From an uncultured Lachnospiraceae bacterium (GTDB taxonomy: Bacteria > Bacillota > Clostridia > Lachnospirales > Lachnospiraceae), in assembly GCA_902760415.1 (NCBI GenBank), contig CACWGK010000016.1, positions 1 to 34,518 on the forward strand: a stretch of 34,518 nucleotides of DNA. The letters run 5' to 3'. The translations under genes and the position numbers were made by a program. The notes beneath the pieces were generated by a model. That model saw nothing but the letters and a program-made list of their open reading frames with translations, searched no databases and had not been told where the DNA came from. This document shows, in pieces, positions 5,096 to 33,528 of this stretch. How positions within the stretch are numbered: position 1 is the first letter of the stretch; each line of letters begins with the position of its first letter.

Positions 5096-6043
5096 TCAAT
5101 CTTTGTCGCGAAGTTCTTTTCCTGTTATTTCCAGGAACACATCATTTAGTGTAGGCAGCTCAGAGTAGATTCGTTCGTAGTTCACATTGTTCTCTGAGAG
5201 ATACTCTATAACGTGAGTAATGTTATGCTTGCCACCGTTACATTTGATGGTGAGCTTATCGCTCATGTACTGAACATCGTATACATGGTTAAGTTTCTTA
5301 ATAGCTTCGATATGCTCAGCAGGAAGTTTTCTGATATCGACGATTACATTTTCTGTATTCTTGATCTTGCCCTTAAGTTCTTCGCTGGTTCCGGATGCAA
5401 CCTCCTTACCCTTATCCATAATGAGGATTTTTGAACATATCTGTTCAATCTCTTCCATGTAATGGGAGGTGTAAATGATAGTTGCACCGTTCTTGTTGAG
5501 CTCGATTACTCCTTCGAGGATTTTGTTTCTCGACTGAGGATCAACTGCGACTGTTGGCTCATCCAGGATTATCAGATCAGGCTTATGAGCGATTCCGCAG
5601 GCGATGTTGAGACGTCTTAGAAGACCACCTGACAGCTTCTTAGGATAGAACTTTCTAAAGTCGTTTAGATCAACGAACTTAATTGCGTCCTCTACGTACT
5701 GGCGTCTAGTTTTCTTATCTCTTATGTATAGTCCGCAGAAGTAATCGATATTTTCGTATACTGTAAGCTCATCGAAGACAGCTACGTTCTGACATACAAC
5801 GCCGATCCTCTTTTTCAAATCTCTTCTGTTAGGTCCCATTTTCTCGCCGAAGAGCTGAACCTCTCCCTTATCATATTTTAGAAGAGACAGGAGGCAGTTG
5901 ATGGTAGTTGTCTTACCAGAACCGTTAGGACCGAGCAGTCCGAATATCTCGCCTTTCTTAATCTCGAGACTGAAGTTATCCAGAGCAATCAGCTCTTTAT
6001 ATCTCTTTACCAGATTACTAATCTTTACAACTGTTTCGCTCAT
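5096..6043 (-). CDS. ABC transporter ATP-binding protein
   Basis: The nucleotide-binding subunit of the adjacent ABC-2 exporter, 315 residues from the preferred start. The core shows Walker A (GLLGPNGSGKTTT), Q-loop (VVCQNVAVFDELTVYENI), signature (LSGGLLRRLNIACGIA), Walker B (LIILDEPTVAVDP) and the H-loop (IIYTSHYMEE). The ~90-residue C-terminal extension is typical of DrrA/CcmA-like export ATPases. An in-frame ATG five codons upstream (6058) exists but has no ribosome binding site; the sequence AGGGAAAG sits just before the ATG at 6043, so I chose 6043. First gene of the three-gene leftward operon. The signature helix has LL instead of the common QK or QR after LSGG, a minor variation. Confidence 0.92.
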   Translation of the reverse strand: MSETVVKISNLVKRYKELIALDNFSLEIKKGEIFGLLGPNGSGKTTTINCLLSLLKYDKGEVQLFGEKMGPNRRDLKKRIGVVCQNVAVFDELTVYENIDYFCGLYIRDKKTRRQYVEDAIKFVDLNDFRKFYPKKLSGGLLRRLNIACGIAHKPDLIILDEPTVAVDPQSRNKILEGVIELNKNGATIIYTSHYMEEIEQICSKILIMDKGKEVASGTSEELKGKIKNTENVIVDIRKLPAEHIEAIKKLNHVYDVQYMSDKLTIKCNGGKHNITHVIEYLSENNVNYERIYSELPTLNDVFLEITGKELRDKD

Positions 6044-6084
6044 ATCTTTCCCTTTCATTGTTTGATATTAAAAGTTTTTATATA

Positions 6085-6125
6085 CAAAAATGGTGTCATA
6101 GGTTTCTCACCTACTGACACCATTC
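6085..6125 (-). terminator. Rho-independent terminator of the PH-domain-like gene
   Basis: Read leftward, AATGGTGTCAGTAGGT, a GAGAA loop and ACCTATGACACCATT form a near-perfect stem followed by TTTTTG. It lies between the stop of the gene at 6216-6614 and the start of the ABC operon, so it separates the two minus-strand units. Confidence 0.8.
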
Positions 6126-6157
6126 TATCAAATCATATTTTTTCTTGTAGTGAACAC

Positions 6158-6185
6158 TGTCACAACTCTTAAGTGACAAATGTCA
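6158..6185. promoter_or_regulatory. Cluster of TGTCA/TGACA half-sites upstream of the ABC operon (possible operator)
   Basis: TGTCAC and GTGACA are arranged as an inverted repeat with a 9-nt spacer (6158-6178). It overlaps a second palindrome TGACA-AA-TGTCA (6174-6185). The region is the only non-coding stretch between the upstream gene and the ABC operon. The regulator is unknown. Confidence 0.35.
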
Positions 6186-6215
6186 TATTATCGAAAATCT
6201 ATTAAAGCAGCGTTA

Positions 6216-6614
6216 CTAATGATGATAATCATCGTCAAAGTCATCTGCGAATCCATCGTGATCATGATCTGTCATGAACTCACGGCCGGAGATACGTTTA
6301 CGCTGTCTCTCTTCCTCAACGAGCTGAGAGAGTTGCTCCTTAACTTCCTTAGCATTCTTGATATTCTTCAGTTCGAAGCATTTCATGGTCTTATCTGAAC
6401 TATCGACCTTGATTGTTCCCATCTTGAAGATACGCTGTCCGAAGGAACGAGTCAGTGAGATATCAAGAATACGGTAGAGTCTTACCTCGTCTTCCTGCTT
6501 TGAAAGTATACCCTTCTCGATGAAGAGTCGCTCATCGTCGAAGCTATATACGGTGAAGGACCATGGCAGTCCGCACCAGTTTCTTTTTCTTTCTCTAAAA
6601 AGTATTTCTCCCAT
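6216..6614 (-). CDS. Small bacterial PH-domain-like protein (bPH2/DUF304 type) with acidic/His tail
   Basis: A 132-residue protein. The region ~18-90 (SFTVYSFDDERLFIEKGILSK ... VRLYRILDISLTRSFGQRIF ... GTIKVDSSDKTMKCFELKNI) has the pattern of the bacterial PH domain seen in YdbS/YdbT-like proteins: an alternating beta pattern and a central 'I.DI...RSF.QRIF..GTI.V' phrase. Unlike YdbS it has no membrane segments. Residues ~90-110 form a charged helix (AKEVKEQLSQLVEEERQRKR). The C-terminus is rich in Asp and His (DHDHDGFADDFDDDYHH) and might bind metal, which is inference. AGGGAGG precedes the start. It is monocistronic, with its own extended -10 promoter and a terminator. Confidence 0.75.
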   Translation of the reverse strand: MGEILFRERKRNWCGLPWSFTVYSFDDERLFIEKGILSKQEDEVRLYRILDISLTRSFGQRIFKMGTIKVDSSDKTMKCFELKNIKNAKEVKEQLSQLVEEERQRKRISGREFMTDHDHDGFADDFDDDYHH

Positions 6615-6659
6615 AATAACCTCCCTAAATACACGCCGCGTCGCATATGAATAATTAAA

Positions 6660-6688
6660 ATTATAACAAGACTCATTTTAACACATAA
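6660..6688 (-). promoter_or_regulatory. Promoter of the PH-domain-like gene
   Basis: On the minus strand an extended -10 box (TGTTATAAT) lies 17 nt from a weak -35 (TTATGT), 46 nt before the ATG at 6614. It forms the leftward half of a divergent promoter region with 6720-6748. Confidence 0.5.
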
Positions 6689-6719
6689 GAGGGGTACAAC
6701 GAAAGAACTTTTCCGCCCC

Positions 6720-6748
6720 TTGTGATTACTGCCGTATTGTTGTATATT
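6720..6748 (+). promoter_or_regulatory. Promoter of the lipoprotein-pncC pair
   Basis: TTGTGA, a 17-nt spacer and TATATT lie 42 nt upstream of the lipoprotein start. The match to the sigma-A consensus is good. Visual call. Confidence 0.5.
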
Positions 6749-6790
6749 CGTACTAGAACTCTAAAGGTTGTTTTTAAAAGAGAGGTTAAT

Positions 6791-7024
6791 ATGGTTAAGA
6801 AGTTTAAGAAGATGATTATAGCAGCTATGCTTGTTCTGTCTCTTGGCACAGTTACAGCTTGCGGCGGAACAGGTTCTGATGTGAGCGATGAGAATAATGA
6901 TGTTCTGGAGCGTGAAGTTGAGCTTGGTAACAGGCTTAAGGAGAAGGCGAAGGACAATGTAGAACAGCAGGGAGAACAGTCAGAGCAGACTGACGATATG
7001 CTGGATAATATCCCTACAGAATAA
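6791..7024 (+). CDS. Small putative lipoprotein
   Basis: A 77-residue protein from the ATG at 6791. Upstream in-frame codons exist, but only this start has a ribosome binding site (AGAGAGG) and it places a lipoprotein signal at the N-terminus: positively charged MVKKFKKM, hydrophobic IIAAMLVLSLG, and lipobox VTAC with the Cys at residue 24. The mature part is about 50 residues, highly acidic and glutamine-rich (LEREVELGNRLKEKAKDN, QQGEQSEQTDD), probably a helical or disordered peptide tethered outside the membrane. No family recognised. The stop is 20 nt before the amidase gene, so the two are likely cotranscribed, though a functional link is not obvious. Confidence 0.75.
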   Translation: MVKKFKKMIIAAMLVLSLGTVTACGGTGSDVSDENNDVLEREVELGNRLKEKAKDNVEQQGEQSEQTDDMLDNIPTE

Positions 7025-7044
7025 GCTGGCTGACAGGAGCGGAC

Positions 7045-7521
7045 ATGGAAAAAGATATAGAGTATAAAGTAGTGGAGCTTCTTATAAAGAAAGGGTTCCA
7101 TATAACATTTGCAGAGTCCTGTACAGCAGGACTTGCAGCAGGACGCCTGGTAAATGTACCAGATGCATCGAAGGTACTGGACGTAAGCTTCGTGACTTAT
7201 GCAAATGAAGCTAAAGTGAAGTACGTTGGTGTAGATGAGGAAACTATCGAGAGATGCGGCGTTGTAAGTGAAGAGGTAGCTGGGCAGATGGCGCGTGGCG
7301 CGGCAGAAGCTATGGGCGCTGAGGTTGGAGTTGGAATCTCGGGAATTGCAGGTCCTACTGGAGGCACTGCTGAGAAGCCTGTTGGTATGGTATGCTTTGG
7401 AATCTGTATCGACGGAGAGGTATCAACTTATACAAAGCAGTTTGGTAACATCGGACGTAACGAGGTCCGCGCATGTTCTGTTGACTTTATATATGAGAAA
7501 CTTGCAGAACTGCTCAAATAA
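7045..7521 (+). CDS. pncC: CinA C-terminal domain protein (nicotinamide-nucleotide amidase PncC type)
   Basis: A 158-residue stand-alone CinA C-terminal domain. Hallmarks are FAESCTAGLAAGRLVNVPDASKV near the N-terminus, SFVTYANEAKVKYVGV, VVSEEVAGQMARGA and GISGIAGPTGGTAEKPVGMVCFGI. In characterised members this domain deamidates nicotinamide mononucleotide to nicotinic acid mononucleotide, recycling NMN from DNA ligase into NAD synthesis. The N-terminal CinA/MoCF-like domain of the fused competence protein is absent, as in E. coli PncC (YgaD). AGGAG lies 7 nt upstream of the ATG. It is the second gene after the small lipoprotein. The family is confident; the exact substrate is from family knowledge. 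Confidence 0.9.
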   Translation: MEKDIEYKVVELLIKKGFHITFAESCTAGLAAGRLVNVPDASKVLDVSFVTYANEAKVKYVGVDEETIERCGVVSEEVAGQMARGAAEAMGAEVGVGISGIAGPTGGTAEKPVGMVCFGICIDGEVSTYTKQFGNIGRNEVRACSVDFIYEKLAELLK

Positions 7522-7577
7522 GTGAAATATATTAAAAGATTGAAAAAATACATGCATAAGTAACGATAGTTAGTGAT

Positions 7578-7603
7578 TTGACAAAAAACGGTCAAAATAT
7601 AAC
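7578..7603 (+). promoter_or_regulatory. Tentative promoter of the giant surface-protein gene
   Basis: A perfect TTGACA is followed by TATAAC after only 14 nt; the same bases form a small inverted repeat (TTGAC ... GTCAA). The short spacer makes this doubtful. A TATTAT at 7667-7672 is an alternative -10. The 191-nt gap holds nothing else that I recognise. Confidence 0.3.
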
Positions 7604-7712
7604 AAAAAATGGGCACAATAGTCGGGGGTTTAATGTTAATTTAATTTATTGTGTGGGAATTATTCATATTATTTGGAAGGAAAAATAAAAGTAGAATGGG
7701 GAAAAAGCAATT

Positions 7713-10700
7713 ATGAAAAAAGCAAAAAGACTGATTTCATTTATTATTAGTATGGCGCTAATATTATCTGAAACAAGTGGCTTATCATTTCCGACATATG
7801 CGGAAGGGAAGTCAGTGAGTACTTTAAGTACGGAGGCAACTCCTGCGGATGCATCCAGCACAGATTCAGAAGAATCTGAGAAAGGTCTATCAACGAATGT
7901 AGACGGAATTGAAGTATCCGTAAATGATGTGAACAGCGTTCTTCCAGAAGGAACCTATATTGAGGTAACTAAGCTGGATGATAATGATGCTCTCAAGATG
8001 GCAAAGGAAGCTGCAGGAAAGACAGAAGATGGCACGGAACTTGTTCGTGATGCTGTCGGCGTAGATATTAATTTCTATGATTCTTTCGGAAATCAGTTCG
8101 AACCATCTGACGATGTTGAAGTCAGCATAGATATCAAGGACTATAGAAGTCTTGATATAGAGGATAAGTTTACAAATCCTAGTTACGATGTTCTTCATAT
8201 TCCAGAAGAAGGCGAACCAGAGTTCATCGAGAATAAAGCTTCCGATGAAGAGGGAGTTGTCTTTGAGTCGGATGAGTTTAGTCCATATATTCTCACCGCA
8301 TCTCCTATAAATCTATACCGTGCAAAACAGCCTTCTATAGATTCTGGTTTTTCTGACTATACTCCATATATAACAACACATGTTCTTTCTGTAGATGGAA
8401 AAGAGATACTTACAGGTGATACTATCGAGCCTACAACAGGTTTCAAGCTTGAGTTATCATTTAACCTTAAGTTAAGTGATATGTCTAAGAACATTACCGA
8501 TTCTACAGATGGTCTTCATTACTACTTTGTTCTTCCTGAACATATCTCTATAGGAGATAAGGGAGACAGTGATAATCAGATTCCACTTTATAATTCCAGA
8601 AATGTCCAGATAGGACAGTACTTTATTAAGTCATCCACTGATGGAGATGTTATGTATGTAACATTTCCTGGATTTTATGATGATGTAACAACTTACTTTG
8701 ATCTTAGTGCGTCTTGGTCTGATACTGAGGACAGGGATGCAATCGACGTTGCTTGGAGCGACAGAACAGACAAGTATTTTATCAACAGAACATCACTCAT
8801 CATAACAAAGGAACAGACACACGCAAGACGTGATGAGGATGGAATAACAAGAAATAGATTTACTGTATCTATTAAGGCAAAGGACGATCTAAATGATGTA
8901 AAGAATGTCAGCTTTAAGGATGAAATGACATCTCAGCACATGGTGGTTGATCCTTCTGCTATAGATGATGGAAATGGAAATAAATATGCATATAAGATAA
9001 CTTCTTATGCGGCAGATGGAACAATAGTTGGCGACCCTACATATCTTTCTGCTTCAGAGGCGGTGACAACTGATGCTGGTGAGAAGGGGAAGCTTACTAC
9101 ACTTGAACTAAGTGGACTTACAGTACCTAAGGGCGGAAAAGTAGTTGTGGAATATACAACCTACATACCTCGCGAGGTGAAGCGTCTTATGGATGCAAAT
9201 GGAGAGGACGATTCTCTCGAGAATAAAGCATCTGCTTCGCACCCTGTAACTAATCAGACTACTCAAGAGGTAGAAAATCCATGGATCACATCTGAAGTAA
9301 CCGATAAGGTCATATATAAGAAAGAGTGGCTTTTAAAGGATGCTAAAAATGATGATCTAGTAAAGATTACTGATGTCGATAATACGGAATATATCGCTAT
9401 GGATTATGACGTCGAGATTAATACGCTCAGAGAGTACACCATGGCTGGAGCACTTATTCGCGATGTAATAAGTAATTCATTTTATGATACTACAAATATT
9501 AAGTACACAAATGTAACCTACGATACAAAGAATCTGGCAAATGAAGCGCCAAAGGTAACTATAACAGTAAAGGCAAATACTGTAACTGAGAAGCAACTTA
9601 CATGGATTACACTGGATTCTTCTACTTATAATAATTTCCTTACAAAGATAAATGTTAAGGATCCGCTGAATGCTCTAGAAAGACTTAAGAGTGATGCGAG
9701 TCTTGCTGATGTAAGAACAAGTCTTCAAAATGCTATTACTGCAGCTAGGTCTTCATTCTCAGGGGATTATTCAGATTATCTCTTTACAGATGCAGATTGT
9801 CATGAGTTTATATGGCTTACTCCAGAAGATCCAAAAGATCCTGTGACAGGTGAAAGAAATGTTGCTACATTTAAGCTTCACTACCATACATTATCTGGAC
9901 TGGGAGTATCATCATTTTCGAATAGCGCTTCTCTTAGGTATCAGGAAATGGATCCTGTTATCTTTGGAGCGATAGGCTATCCGGGAGATTACAATCTAAA
10001 AAAGAGACAGATAGATATTAACAAGTATAACGAAGGCGTATATCTTGGAGAAGATGGAAACTTCTATATAGATTGGACTATAAATGCATCTGTGCCAGCT
10101 AATTCACGTGGCTGGGAAGATGTTATGCTTATAGATGATTTACCAACATACGTTGTTGGCGATGGAGATAACAAGATTGTCTATTCTGATTGGCTGAAGG
10201 GACTTGCTGGTCCTGATGTTGATTCCATTAATAGCGGAGTATTCAAGTTCTCTACAGAGTCTGATAGAGATGACGTAAAAGCGATTGTGAATAGAGCTAA
10301 GGCTGGACTGAATAACGGATATTGGAATGGATATTCAGAGACCGAAACTAGTACTTATCATAACGGAATATTTTACGAAAGACCTGATTCAGAGTGGATA
10401 GATTACCTCTCGAAGTGGGGCTCTGACGCATTTAATGCAACGATTGTAGCAAGGGGAACCTACTATCATGGCAAGGATCTTGCTGCTGGTCAGTTTGTTG
10501 TAGAGACAGATGGAACGGATTGGGTTAGTAAGGTCAAGAAGGGTGACACAGGAACAATCAGTACATATTCTATATACCTTGGAGATTTTCCGGGAACTGA
10601 GAGTGAAGGCTACACCGTACAGATTAAATATACTACTCAGGTGAATCCACTTCTGGTTAAGAGACTTCCTGATATATTACAGAGTACTGGTCAGGAGGTT

Positions 10701-31440: not shown

Positions 31441-31590
31441 ATGGAAAGAATAAAGACACTTGATACAAGAGATCTTTGTGAGAGCGCTAAGAACGGCGGA
31501 TGTGGCGAGTGCCAGACATCATGCCAGAGTGCTTGCAAGACAAGCTGTGGTGTTGCAAATCAGAAGTGTGAGAACAAGTCTGAGAAGTAG
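31441..31590 (+). CDS. scfA: SCIFF (six Cys in forty-five) ranthipeptide precursor
   Basis: A 49-residue precursor: leader MERIKTLDTRDL, then the SCIFF core with CGECQTSCQSACKTSC. The six family cysteines are C21, C24, C28, C32, C36 and C43; an additional Cys lies at position 13 in the leader. The family is nearly universal in Clostridia. The encoded radical SAM/SPASM maturase (scfB, here at 32080) forms a thioether between a Cys and the gamma/beta carbon of a residue, recalled for C. thermocellum CteA as Cys32-Thr37. Here residue 37 is Gly, so the acceptor must differ (see findings). AAAGGAG precedes the ATG. The gene has its own promoter and terminator. Proposed roles include quorum sensing or regulation; the mature product is not known for this organism. 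Confidence 0.95.
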   Translation: MERIKTLDTRDLCESAKNGGCGECQTSCQSACKTSCGVANQKCENKSEK

Positions 31591-31635
31591 TTTGCCCGTG
31601 AAGTTGGGTTCATTACAAAACTGATCAGTGAAAGA

Positions 31636-31670
31636 ATACGTCACCTACTTCTAGGTGGCGTATCTTTTTC
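31636..31670 (+). terminator. Rho-independent terminator of scfA
   Basis: ATACGTCACCTA, loop CTTC, TAGGTGGCGTAT: a 12-bp stem with one G-U pair, then CTTTTTC. It should end most scfA transcripts before the maturase gene. Confidence 0.85.
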
Positions 31671-31681
31671 TGTATATGTTT

Positions 31682-32013
31682 CCGCGGCGATTCTTATCAC
31701 GTGTTTCAATACTCGCATTCTCGACTCAGCTCTCGCACAGGCGCGGTGCCCTAGCGGACGCCGGCTTGCTTTCTTCGAAAACAAGCTTCGGCTCGCTAAG
31801 CTCTCACTGCGTGCTGAGCACTTGTGAATCGCTAAGCGCCGAAACGGTTCCCGATTCATAGAATCGGGAATCTGTCTGAAAGACAGACACATTCTGCGTA
31901 GCAGAATCAATACTTGCTTGGCAAGTATTGCATATCACGAAGTGATATGGTGCAGACCGCTTATGGTCTCGAATGCGAGTTTGAAAACACGTTTATATAG
32001 AATCGCCCGCGAG
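31682..32013. repeat. 330-bp ornate inverted-repeat element with a hairpin array (possible structured RNA or non-autonomous mobile element)
   Basis: The terminal arms (31682-31724 and 31967-32013) are imperfect inverted repeats of about 40 bp sharing GCGG-CGATTCT, ACGTGTTT-CAA and ACTCGCATTC. Inside, a GC-rich half holds weaker hairpins (31760-31792; 31804-31827). Then come five nearly contiguous perfect hairpins, each with a 3-nt loop: 31848-31870 (10 bp), 31871-31887 (7), 31891-31907 (7), 31909-31929 (9) and 31931-31949 (8). A looser one lies at 31954-31969. No credible protein is encoded. It accounts for most of the 489-bp gap between scfA and scfB. Confidence 0.8.
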
Positions 32014-32079
32014 GGTACAAAAAAAACGACATAAAAAGTATTATGGACAAATGTAATCTTTTGTTATATAGAGGATAGT

Positions 32080-33528
32080 ATGGTACATCAGTATAAATTA
32101 AATGGATATAATATCGTTCTCGATACTTGCTCTGGTTCTGTTCACAGTGTAGATGATGTGGCCTATGACATTATCGAGATGTTTCCTGATAAATCAGAGG
32201 ATGAGATAGTAGAAGAGATAATGAAGAAGTACGGCGACAGGGATGACGTAACTGAGGAAGAAGTACGTCTCTGTATAGACGACGTTCGTACTCTTCGTGA
32301 TATGAAGAAGTTATATACTCCAAATGAGTATGCCCCACTTGCAGGTGAGTTCAAGAAGCGTAGTGGAGATGTTATAAAGGCACTGTGTCTTCATGTTTCA
32401 CATACCTGTAATCTCAATTGCGAGTACTGCTTCGCGGCTCAGGGTAAGTATAACGGCGAAAGAGCTGTTATGAGCTTCGAGGTAGGTAAACGAGCTATTG
32501 ATTTCCTTGTTGAGCATAGTGGAACAAGGCATAATCTTGAAGTGGATTTCTTTGGCGGTGAGCCTCTGATGAACTGGGATGTGTGCAAGGATATCGTAAG
32601 ATATGCGCGTTCTATCGAGAAGGAAGCGGGTAAGAACTTCAGATTTACCCTTACTACTAACGGAGTACTTATAGATGATGAAGTGATTGACTTCTGTAAT
32701 AAGGAAATGAGTAACGTGGTACTTAGTCTGGATGGACGTAAGGAAGTTCATGACCGTACACGTGTAGATTATCAGGGAAATGGAAGCTATGACAAGATAG
32801 TTCCTAAGTTCAAAAAGTTAGTTGATTCCCGTGGTGGAAAGAACTACTATATGCGCGGAACCTTTACTCATTTAAATACTGATTTTACTAAGGATATATT
32901 TGCTATGGCAGATCTGGGATTCAAGGAACTCTCTATGGAACCAGTTGTTTGTAATCCTTCAGATCCATTGGCGCTTACTGAGGAAGATCTTCCTGTACTT
33001 AAGGAACAGTATGAGATTCTGGCAAAGGAAATGCTTGACCGAGATATAAAAGGCGAAGGTTTTACATTTTATCATTATATGCTGGATCTTAAGGAAGGTC
33101 CTTGTATATATAAGAGAATATCAGGATGTGGTTCGGGAACTGAATATATGGCTGTTACACCATGGGGCGACCTTTATCCTTGTCATCAGTTTGTTGGCGA
33201 TGAAAAGTACAAGCTTGGTGATATCTGGAATGGTGTCTCAAATGTGGACAGACAGGATGAGTTCCGCTACTGTAATGCTTACGCAAGACCAGAATGTCTG
33301 GACTGCTGGGCACAGCTTTACTGTTCTGGTGGATGTGCAGCAAATGCATATCATGCAACTGGAGATGTGAAGGGTATCTATGAATATGGATGTGAACTAT
33401 TCCGTAAGAGGATTGAGTGTGCTATAATGATTCAAGTAGCGCATGATGCACTTGGTCTTGCACCAGTTGAAGGTGCTACGGCAGGTGGTACGGATTGTGA
33501 GGGTTGTGATTCTGATTGCAGCGCTTAA
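32080..33528 (+). CDS. scfB: SCIFF peptide radical SAM/SPASM maturase
   Basis: A 482-residue enzyme that cross-links the ScfA peptide. The N-terminal ~90 residues (MVHQYKLNGYNIVLDTCSGS, VDDVAYDIIEMF, VTEEEVRLCIDDV) form the peptide-recognition region typical of SCIFF maturases. The radical SAM cluster motif is C110-x3-C114-x2-C117 in HTCNLNCEYCFAAQGKY, and FFGGEPLMNW is the SAM-binding GGE stretch. The SPASM region (~345-450) carries many Cys for two auxiliary clusters: CGSGTEYMAVTPWGDLYPCHQFVG, ECLDCWAQLYCSGGCAANAY and YGCELF. A final Cys-rich tail reads DCEGCDSDCSA. It is separated from its substrate gene by a terminator and the 330-bp element, rather than directly following it. AGAGG precedes the ATG; no convincing promoter of its own was found. 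Confidence 0.95.
   Translation: MVHQYKLNGYNIVLDTCSGSVHSVDDVAYDIIEMFPDKSEDEIVEEIMKKYGDRDDVTEEEVRLCIDDVRTLRDMKKLYTPNEYAPLAGEFKKRSGDVIKALCLHVSHTCNLNCEYCFAAQGKYNGERAVMSFEVGKRAIDFLVEHSGTRHNLEVDFFGGEPLMNWDVCKDIVRYARSIEKEAGKNFRFTLTTNGVLIDDEVIDFCNKEMSNVVLSLDGRKEVHDRTRVDYQGNGSYDKIVPKFKKLVDSRGGKNYYMRGTFTHLNTDFTKDIFAMADLGFKELSMEPVVCNPSDPLALTEEDLPVLKEQYEILAKEMLDRDIKGEGFTFYHYMLDLKEGPCIYKRISGCGSGTEYMAVTPWGDLYPCHQFVGDEKYKLGDIWNGVSNVDRQDEFRYCNAYARPECLDCWAQLYCSGGCAANAYHATGDVKGIYEYGCELFRKRIECAIMIQVAHDALGLAPVEGATAGGTDCEGCDSDCSA

Follow-up and report, generated by a model that had tools for sequence, protein, structure and literature searches.

A mobile, MITE-like palindromic repeat family of Lachnospiraceae that seems to be kept for its shape

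Introduction

ERIC, BOX, RUP, bcr and similar repeats are imperfect palindromes found between genes. REP and BIME elements are small intergenic palindromes that are recognised, by RAYT, as hairpins in single strands. Integron attC sites have a conserved structure and act as folded single-strand DNA, as set out in the part of one account used here (PMC8632094). For MITEs, the criteria given in the part of a review drawn on here (PMC10969869) include short length, lack of coding sequence, inverted-repeat ends, insertion polymorphism, direct repeats from target duplication, a related autonomous IS and A/T-richness.

Here we analyse a 330-base intergenic stretch (31682-32013) from a rumen-type gut bacterium of the Lachnospiraceae. 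Positions are those of the window, meaning the whole stretch of DNA that was analysed (34,518 nt). The original prediction, made from the letters of the window, offered three readings: a large structured non-coding RNA, a palindromic non-autonomous mobile element, or a folded single-strand substrate for a transposase or integrase.

Results

The stretch lies between two genes on the + strand, which we take, following the original prediction, to be scfA (31441..31590), encoding a six-cysteine SCIFF peptide, and scfB (32080..33528), encoding a radical-SAM maturase. In relatives, too, scfB comes after a similar peptide. The gap between the two genes is 489 nt long, and includes a hairpin with a T run (31631..31668, + strand), the native terminator of scfA. 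This is placed outside the element because a like hairpin is kept in orthologues that lack the element.

The element itself is built of several parts. The left arm of the outer palindrome (31682..31725) starts with CCGCGG and the right arm (31966..32013) ends with CCCGCGAG, both of these being family end motifs; neither arm is assigned to a strand. The conserved core module (31716..31862, + strand) is matched by the covariance model R1, described below, with 68.6 bits. Within it lies the motif that is most strongly conserved across the family, a hairpin running from CGCTAAGC to GCTAAGCG (31794..31838, + strand) with a TGA triloop, and the triloop hairpin proper, with its 4 bp stem, is present at 31811-31821 as had been proposed. 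An array of five perfect triloop hairpins (31848..31949, + strand) is an optional module within the core, and shifts the 3' part of the core, AGACCGCTTATGGTCTCG (31954..31971, + strand), downstream. The widest likely extent of the insertion is 31660..32044, also without a strand, from GTATCTTTTT to AAAAAGTATT, which resembles the GTATAC ends of some relatives; this is an outer estimate (at most ~385 bp) rather than a pair of fixed end points.

The five hairpins of the array have stems of 10 bp with the loop ATA (31848-31870), 7 bp with GAA (31871-31887), 7 bp with GTA (31891-31907), 10 bp with TTG (31908-31930) and 8 bp with GAA (31931-31949). The extent of the array, the loops and four of the lengths had been predicted correctly, the fourth stem being 10 bp and not 9. 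Triloop stems of 7 bp or longer number five here, far more than by chance (a mean of 0.03 and a maximum of 1 in 2000 dinucleotide shuffles); elsewhere in the 34.5 kb there are five in total. The imperfect inverted repeats said to bracket the array are also real: 31699-31725 and 31966-31992 are 81% complementary, and, further out, 31686-31694 and 31999-32007 are perfect complements. In the predicted fold, one long imperfect stem closes a multi-branched structure with the five triloop hairpins. The fold of 31660-32030 has z = -12.3 on the + strand and z = -11.3 on the - strand, with 0 of 100 shuffles as stable on each strand.

The 5' half is richer in GC than its surroundings, as had been noted (0.57, compared to 0.44 in the 3' half, 0.51 in the element and 0.40 in the window). 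No coding explanation was expected to fit, and a Pfam search up to E = 1 gave nothing for four small ORFs that overlap the element. A fold with z = -12.3 could be that of a structured non-coding RNA, either acting in trans or forming part of the scfA-scfB mRNA, whose gene has spread by duplication and whose fold acts as RNA. However, the two strands fold about equally well, and Rfam 15 gives no match: none for the window at gathering score, none inside the element when E-values up to 10 are allowed, and none for copies at seven other loci with the limit set at E = 1. The original prediction, too, had matched the element to no named large RNA or riboswitch.

A sequence search found 29 matching places in the element's own genome (2.65 Mb, 150 contigs), many of these being pieces of one copy. 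Over 261-265 bp, identity to the window copy is 94% for the copy on contig C132 and 92% for that on C112. Both contigs, together with C53 and C40, stop inside the element match, and the assembly therefore under-counts the element. The covariance model R1 was built from 39 diverse cores (alignment A1), and its E-values are rough, the calibration having been shortened. With this model, the own genome yields 11 cores, and 45 of 61 genomes of the genus have one copy or more, with up to 36 in one genome. In wider samples, where the genome counts each include the own genome, it finds copies in 3 of 246 genomes of the order sample, in 23 of 397 genomes (22 of 334 genera) of the family sample, and in 4 of 398 genomes of the phylum sample, one of which is from another family. 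Scanning named genomes by pattern gave at least 112 stretches; among the matches listed, all are from Lachnospiraceae or 'Eubacterium sp.', and their titles often refer to the rumen or another forestomach. Two places in LC2019 (L173 and L209) have cores that are 99% identical. Homologous copies in related genomes, whose absence would have told against the element, are thus abundant, and 31682-32013 is a member of a non-coding family of dispersed repeats. It is unlikely that the window copy is an assembly chimera, a concern raised in the original prediction, because glgP and scfB also flank copies at two other loci (L148 and L165).

Carriage by phages or plasmids was considered and rejected, since the window copy has no match in the phage and plasmid records searched, nor the exact core pattern any match in the viral contigs scanned. 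It is worth adding that at L013 (1084-1431 and 1484-1602) one element copy and the RNase P RNA gene are ~50 bases apart, and that another locus (L365, G616:C9, about 5780-8690) has almost 3 kb of repeated hairpin-bearing units, with several R1 cores on the same contig.

From the outside inward, the family has end motifs, arms of ~20-60 bp, the core and, in some copies, the hairpin array, and a like architecture is present in other genera. The end motifs vary by subfamily, being CCGCGG..TCGCGA (the window type), GTATAC..GTATAC, or GCCTCGC..GCTCGGC (the last by eye). When the fetched loci were scanned for GTATAC ends, a strict scan gave 0 pairs and a looser one 15 pairs, of which 13 enclose a core; 11 of these are 291-483 bp long, at 9 distinct places. 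The core consists of covarying helices and conserved unpaired letters, and both its fold and these letters are preserved across genera. The order of the hairpins is likewise preserved among arrays, and arrays are also found without a core. Composites occur with two head-to-head cores (11 of 101 gaps), and with a core joined to a second palindromic family.

Triloops account for 51 of 110 hairpins in element windows, compared to 11 of 67 terminator-like controls, and to 228 of 953 hairpins outside element windows, a set that still includes arrays. The closing pair is C-G in 45 of the 51 element triloops. C-GNA-G triloops are stable in DNA, which the C-G closing pairs fit. A core-less triloop array is found inside an apparent V-type ATPase operon (L253, about 9632-9730, in G005; by eye), and core copies lie between V-ATPase-like genes at L037, L160 and L190 (by eye). 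L069 (G028:C13) has tandem 238-nt units of triloop hairpins, in a genome with no R1 core.

The gaps of orthologous genes show that the element comes and goes. The scfA-scfB gap was compared at 27 scfB loci, and at 14 that were turned round, with several unparsable ones excluded. In G005, the closest complete relative (84% identity in the scfB stretch searched), the gap is 80 nt long and contains the terminator only and no element. G030 and G004 have copies of their own, that of G030 being in the other orientation. Upstream of purH, where a few loci have a different neighbouring gene, the core is present in 4 of the 30 loci read (G005, G012, G033 and G066; by eye). Here G000 has a short gap with no core, G083 an apparent scar of the right arm, and G006, G028 and G076 other or remnant palindromes (all by eye). 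Downstream of htpG, 22 of 30 loci were covered, of which 17 were readable. Two of these (G067 and G071) have in common an insertion that contains the core and is bounded by identical GTATAC ends; the core is absent from the remaining 15. G067 has two cores at this site, the second of which was apparently lost in G071 between 7-bp repeats (by eye). These three gaps are each occupied in some species only, and the element is therefore mobile. Both the empty orthologous sites that had been looked for and the dispersed copies bear out the second of the three original readings, that of a palindromic non-autonomous mobile element.

G403 has two copies of a ~680 bp composite with 14-bp inverted ends, which are 97% identical over 630 bp and have different sequence outside. 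A target duplication is unreadable at the GTATAC pairs, at htpG and in G403; GTATAC is itself palindromic. A host palindrome as the target of insertion was rejected, the arms being absent from the purH gap of G000 and the scf gap of G005. A different palindromic repeat family, AGCTATTTTCTAAATTATTCGAG..GAAAATAGAGCTATCG with arms of ~33 bp (by eye), occupies the scfA-scfB gap at L081, L085, L086 and L087 (G066, G033, G075 and G083), and in several copies the core family is linked to a similar palindrome.

Covariation, which the original prediction had named as a check, is present in both core and array. In 108 distinct cores from 100 fetched loci, in an alignment that was fitted to its structure and so leans toward pairing, 97.7% of cells are paired and 249 cells have double changes, whereas shuffles give 64 ± 8 and slid controls 19-43. 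In 24 arrays, where the structure was taken from the window copy and leans the same way, 95.2% are paired, with 98 double-change cells compared to 24 ± 4. In the outer arms, the sequence differs between copies and the pairing within each copy is retained. The pairing score within copies has a median of 18.3 (127/141 copies measured), whereas swapped arms give 9.0, with a maximum of 15.9; the score is at least 15 in 102 of 150 copies. At 18 distant loci from the family and phylum samples, the arms score above the top control (16.5, from windows of slightly different size) in 12 and not in 6.

For 18 pairs of copies at different places with cores 90-95% identical, the arms have mean identities of 0.62 and 0.74, and random arm pairs treated with the same aligner have 0.52. 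The arm identity is 0.47-0.73 in two pairs at 95% core identity, and 0.76-0.96 in five different-place pairs with 96-99% core identity. The arms of many cores in the 90-95% range come close to the random level, which had raised the possibility that arms are made new at each insertion. The five pairs at 96-99% share arms and rule against this; the arms therefore move with the element and afterwards change quickly. At the purH site, three differences between G066 and G033 are matched on both arms, with one extra unmatched change in G066. Related arms were compared among 50 copies in which 16 or more of the 20 inner pairs are formed. All 6 related pairs together have 15 changes that match and 15 that do not, where 5.5 matched ones would be expected, and the 4 independent pairs have 11 matched and 6 unmatched (3.7 matched expected). 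The pairing of arms, core and array is thus preserved while the letters change, and the element seems to be kept for its shape rather than its letters.

The main rival to recognition by fold is an ordinary MITE moved by a double-strand transposase, with the hairpins as passengers whose stems are kept matched by template switching during replication. In the part of the report used here (PMC8794818), template switching is described as creating and repairing hairpin stems with multi-base compensation, and as maintaining them, and it could give covariation without any recognition of shape. The compensated arm changes at the purH site and the matched changes in related arms (11 to 6 in the independent pairs) are consistent with this, as are symmetric mismatches and an apparent inversion of a loop (TTC/GAA) between the arrays of L195 and L215. 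However, the unpaired letters and fold of the core are kept across genera, the order of array hairpins is kept, and the arms lose their sequence yet keep their pairing, which repair alone need not yield. We therefore consider a plain MITE of this kind rather unlikely.

In an RNA helix, G-U is tolerated on the RNA's own strand, and A-C is not. The arms have 124 G.T and 147 A.C mismatches, and the embedded mismatches, counted in arms with scores of 15 or more, comprise 11 G.T and 27 A.C. The arms of 24 copies from other genera have 30 G.T and 32 A.C overall, and 11 of each embedded, while the arrays have 13 G.T and 8 A.C. Core columns taken at face value have 41 G.T and 5 A.C, which would point to RNA or to a strand-specific fold. 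Of these 41, however, 30 were judged by eye to be misregistered subfamilies (three columns) and 8 to be one inherited subfamily wobble; with these 38 removed by eye, there are 3 G.T and 4 A.C.

For orientation, 158 core matches were considered, with 15 repeats, 18 near contig ends and 12 lacking an ORF on one side left out. One match is inside a long ORF, and 112 were placed between ORFs, in 101 gaps. Relative to co-directional neighbours, all 112 placed cores give 43 in the same and 47 in the opposite direction, a count that is unsafe because head-to-head pairs force a balance. In the 90 single-core gaps, 33 cores point the same way as such neighbours and 37 the opposite way. The lack of a G-U excess in the arms and the lack of an orientation bias therefore favour folding DNA over RNA, despite the raw core count of 41 to 5. 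The structured-RNA reading, the first of those originally proposed, draws support from the strong covariation of core and array, from the conserved unpaired letters of the core and from that raw count. It is weakened by the orientation counts and by the lack of a G-U excess in arms and distant copies, and also by the absence of the core, at a given gap, from most of the loci read. We regard it as unlikely.

The same counts bear on the suggestion that the copies are bidirectional terminators, or hairpins that stabilise mRNA, recruited for regulation, with mobility incidental. The copies are intergenic and some of them persist at one site across species, as this would predict. On the other hand, co-directional gaps are not enriched (70 of 90 single-core gaps, compared to 399 of 482 ORF pairs without the element), there is no orientation bias, and the native terminator still stands beside the window copy. 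Such a role is very unlikely to account for the family.

The reading that we favour, and consider fairly probable, is that of a modular, non-coding, non-autonomous MITE-like palindromic element of Lachnospiraceae, moved in trans as a folded single strand or cruciform. Beyond the mobility observed, and the arms that pair without conserving their sequence, we infer a single-stranded form, its recognition and an enzyme. A folded single DNA strand or a cruciform would be the form recognised and moved, and an enzyme supplied in trans would read the conserved core and the shape of the helices. Recognition of this type would explain why the arms need only to pair, why C-G-closed triloops are common, and why orientation to genes is irrelevant. 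A folded single-strand substrate, the third of the original readings, is thus the best-fitting mechanism, though an inferred one.

When the flanking proteins were clustered, the 14 largest clusters included none that looked transposase-like (judged by eye from the first 70 residues), and at the 16 loci with the GTATAC pattern, 6 of which hold a core, no transposase-like frame lies between the paired ends. These results count against the favoured reading, as do the lack of a readable target duplication, the mismatch counts of the arrays (13 to 8) and the arms at 6 of 18 distant loci, which are no better than controls. An autonomous form was also sought by means of the GTATAC end, and none emerged: the one-mismatch pattern is found in 9 of 61 genomes, and its backwards control in more, and therefore only G071, which has the most matches (6), stands out. 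In this genome, a 134-bp stretch bounded by GTATAC and lacking a core (L306, 1501-1634) follows 14 bases after the end of a resolvase-type serine recombinase gene (851-1486; Pfam PF00239). This gene is the sole enzyme lead, a single and unproven case.

A further candidate was a REP/RAYT-type element, for which RAYT-like Y1 transposases present in the genus would be the enzymes. RAYT-like open frames of ~250 aa are found among element-bearing genomes, for example G005, G012, G033, G066 and G030. However, a comparison of 121 cores with 20 RAYT-like neighbourhoods gave just two weak 22-nt matches, and several copy-bearing genomes have no Y1 match (G000, G016 and G004, as well as G068, with 33 copies). 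A RAYT partner is accordingly not supported, and the reading is extremely improbable. RAYT-like genes at L261, L263, L265 and L269 lie directly behind a small XRE-like regulator gene (MTIGERV.., MTIPERI..; by eye).

Discussion

The family is strongly covarying and has no Rfam entry, and a single model finds it in 22 of the 334 genera sampled from a family that is prominent in the gut. It breaks metagenome assemblies, as seen in the four own-genome contigs that end within it, and could readily be taken for a structured RNA. Whether shape alone is enough for a mobile element to be recognised is a question for which the family provides a test case; should the covariation be due to template switching, the family would instead be a warning for covariation-based RNA discovery. 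We suggest, tentatively, that it may represent a new class of mobile DNA, spread over many genera of Lachnospiraceae, whose identity would lie in its fold (a conserved core of single-stranded DNA, arms for which pairing suffices, and a hairpin array) and which would be served by an enzyme in trans.

Among the papers listed in the literature searches, none dealt with palindromic or MITE-like repeats of Lachnospiraceae or described the element, and we treat the family as undescribed on the basis of this search and of Rfam. Compared to REP/BIME elements with their RAYT, it is much larger, has no RAYT beside its copies, and is present in several copy-rich genomes with no Y1 match. It differs from attC sites in that the ends of the window copy, the one inspected by eye, have neither RYYYAAC nor GTTRRRY, and in that it does not lie in cassette arrays. 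From ERIC, BOX, RUP, bcr and similar repeats it seems to be set apart as a composite of arms, core and array.

The closest resemblance is to MITEs. In the part of the review cited here (PMC10969869), bacterial examples such as QMITE of Coxiella and Chunjie of Geobacter are, like the present element, short, non-coding, intergenic and multi-copy, with inverted-repeat ends, stem-loop formation and truncated copies. The copies are non-coding and mostly below the 500 bp used for MITEs (291-483 bp for 11 of the core-bearing GTATAC pairs, at most ~385 bp for the window copy), the ~680 bp composite of G403 being an exception. Their terminal inverted repeats pair above controls at the median, and three gaps are found with and without the element. 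In contrast to MITEs, the element has arm sequences specific to each copy, a conserved structured core and a hairpin array. No related IS was found in the flanking-protein clusters or at the GTATAC loci, and no direct repeats were seen. Its GC content of 0.51, in a window of 0.40, does not match the A/T-richness of MITEs; in length, lack of coding sequence, inverted repeats and insertion polymorphism, the element behaves like a MITE.
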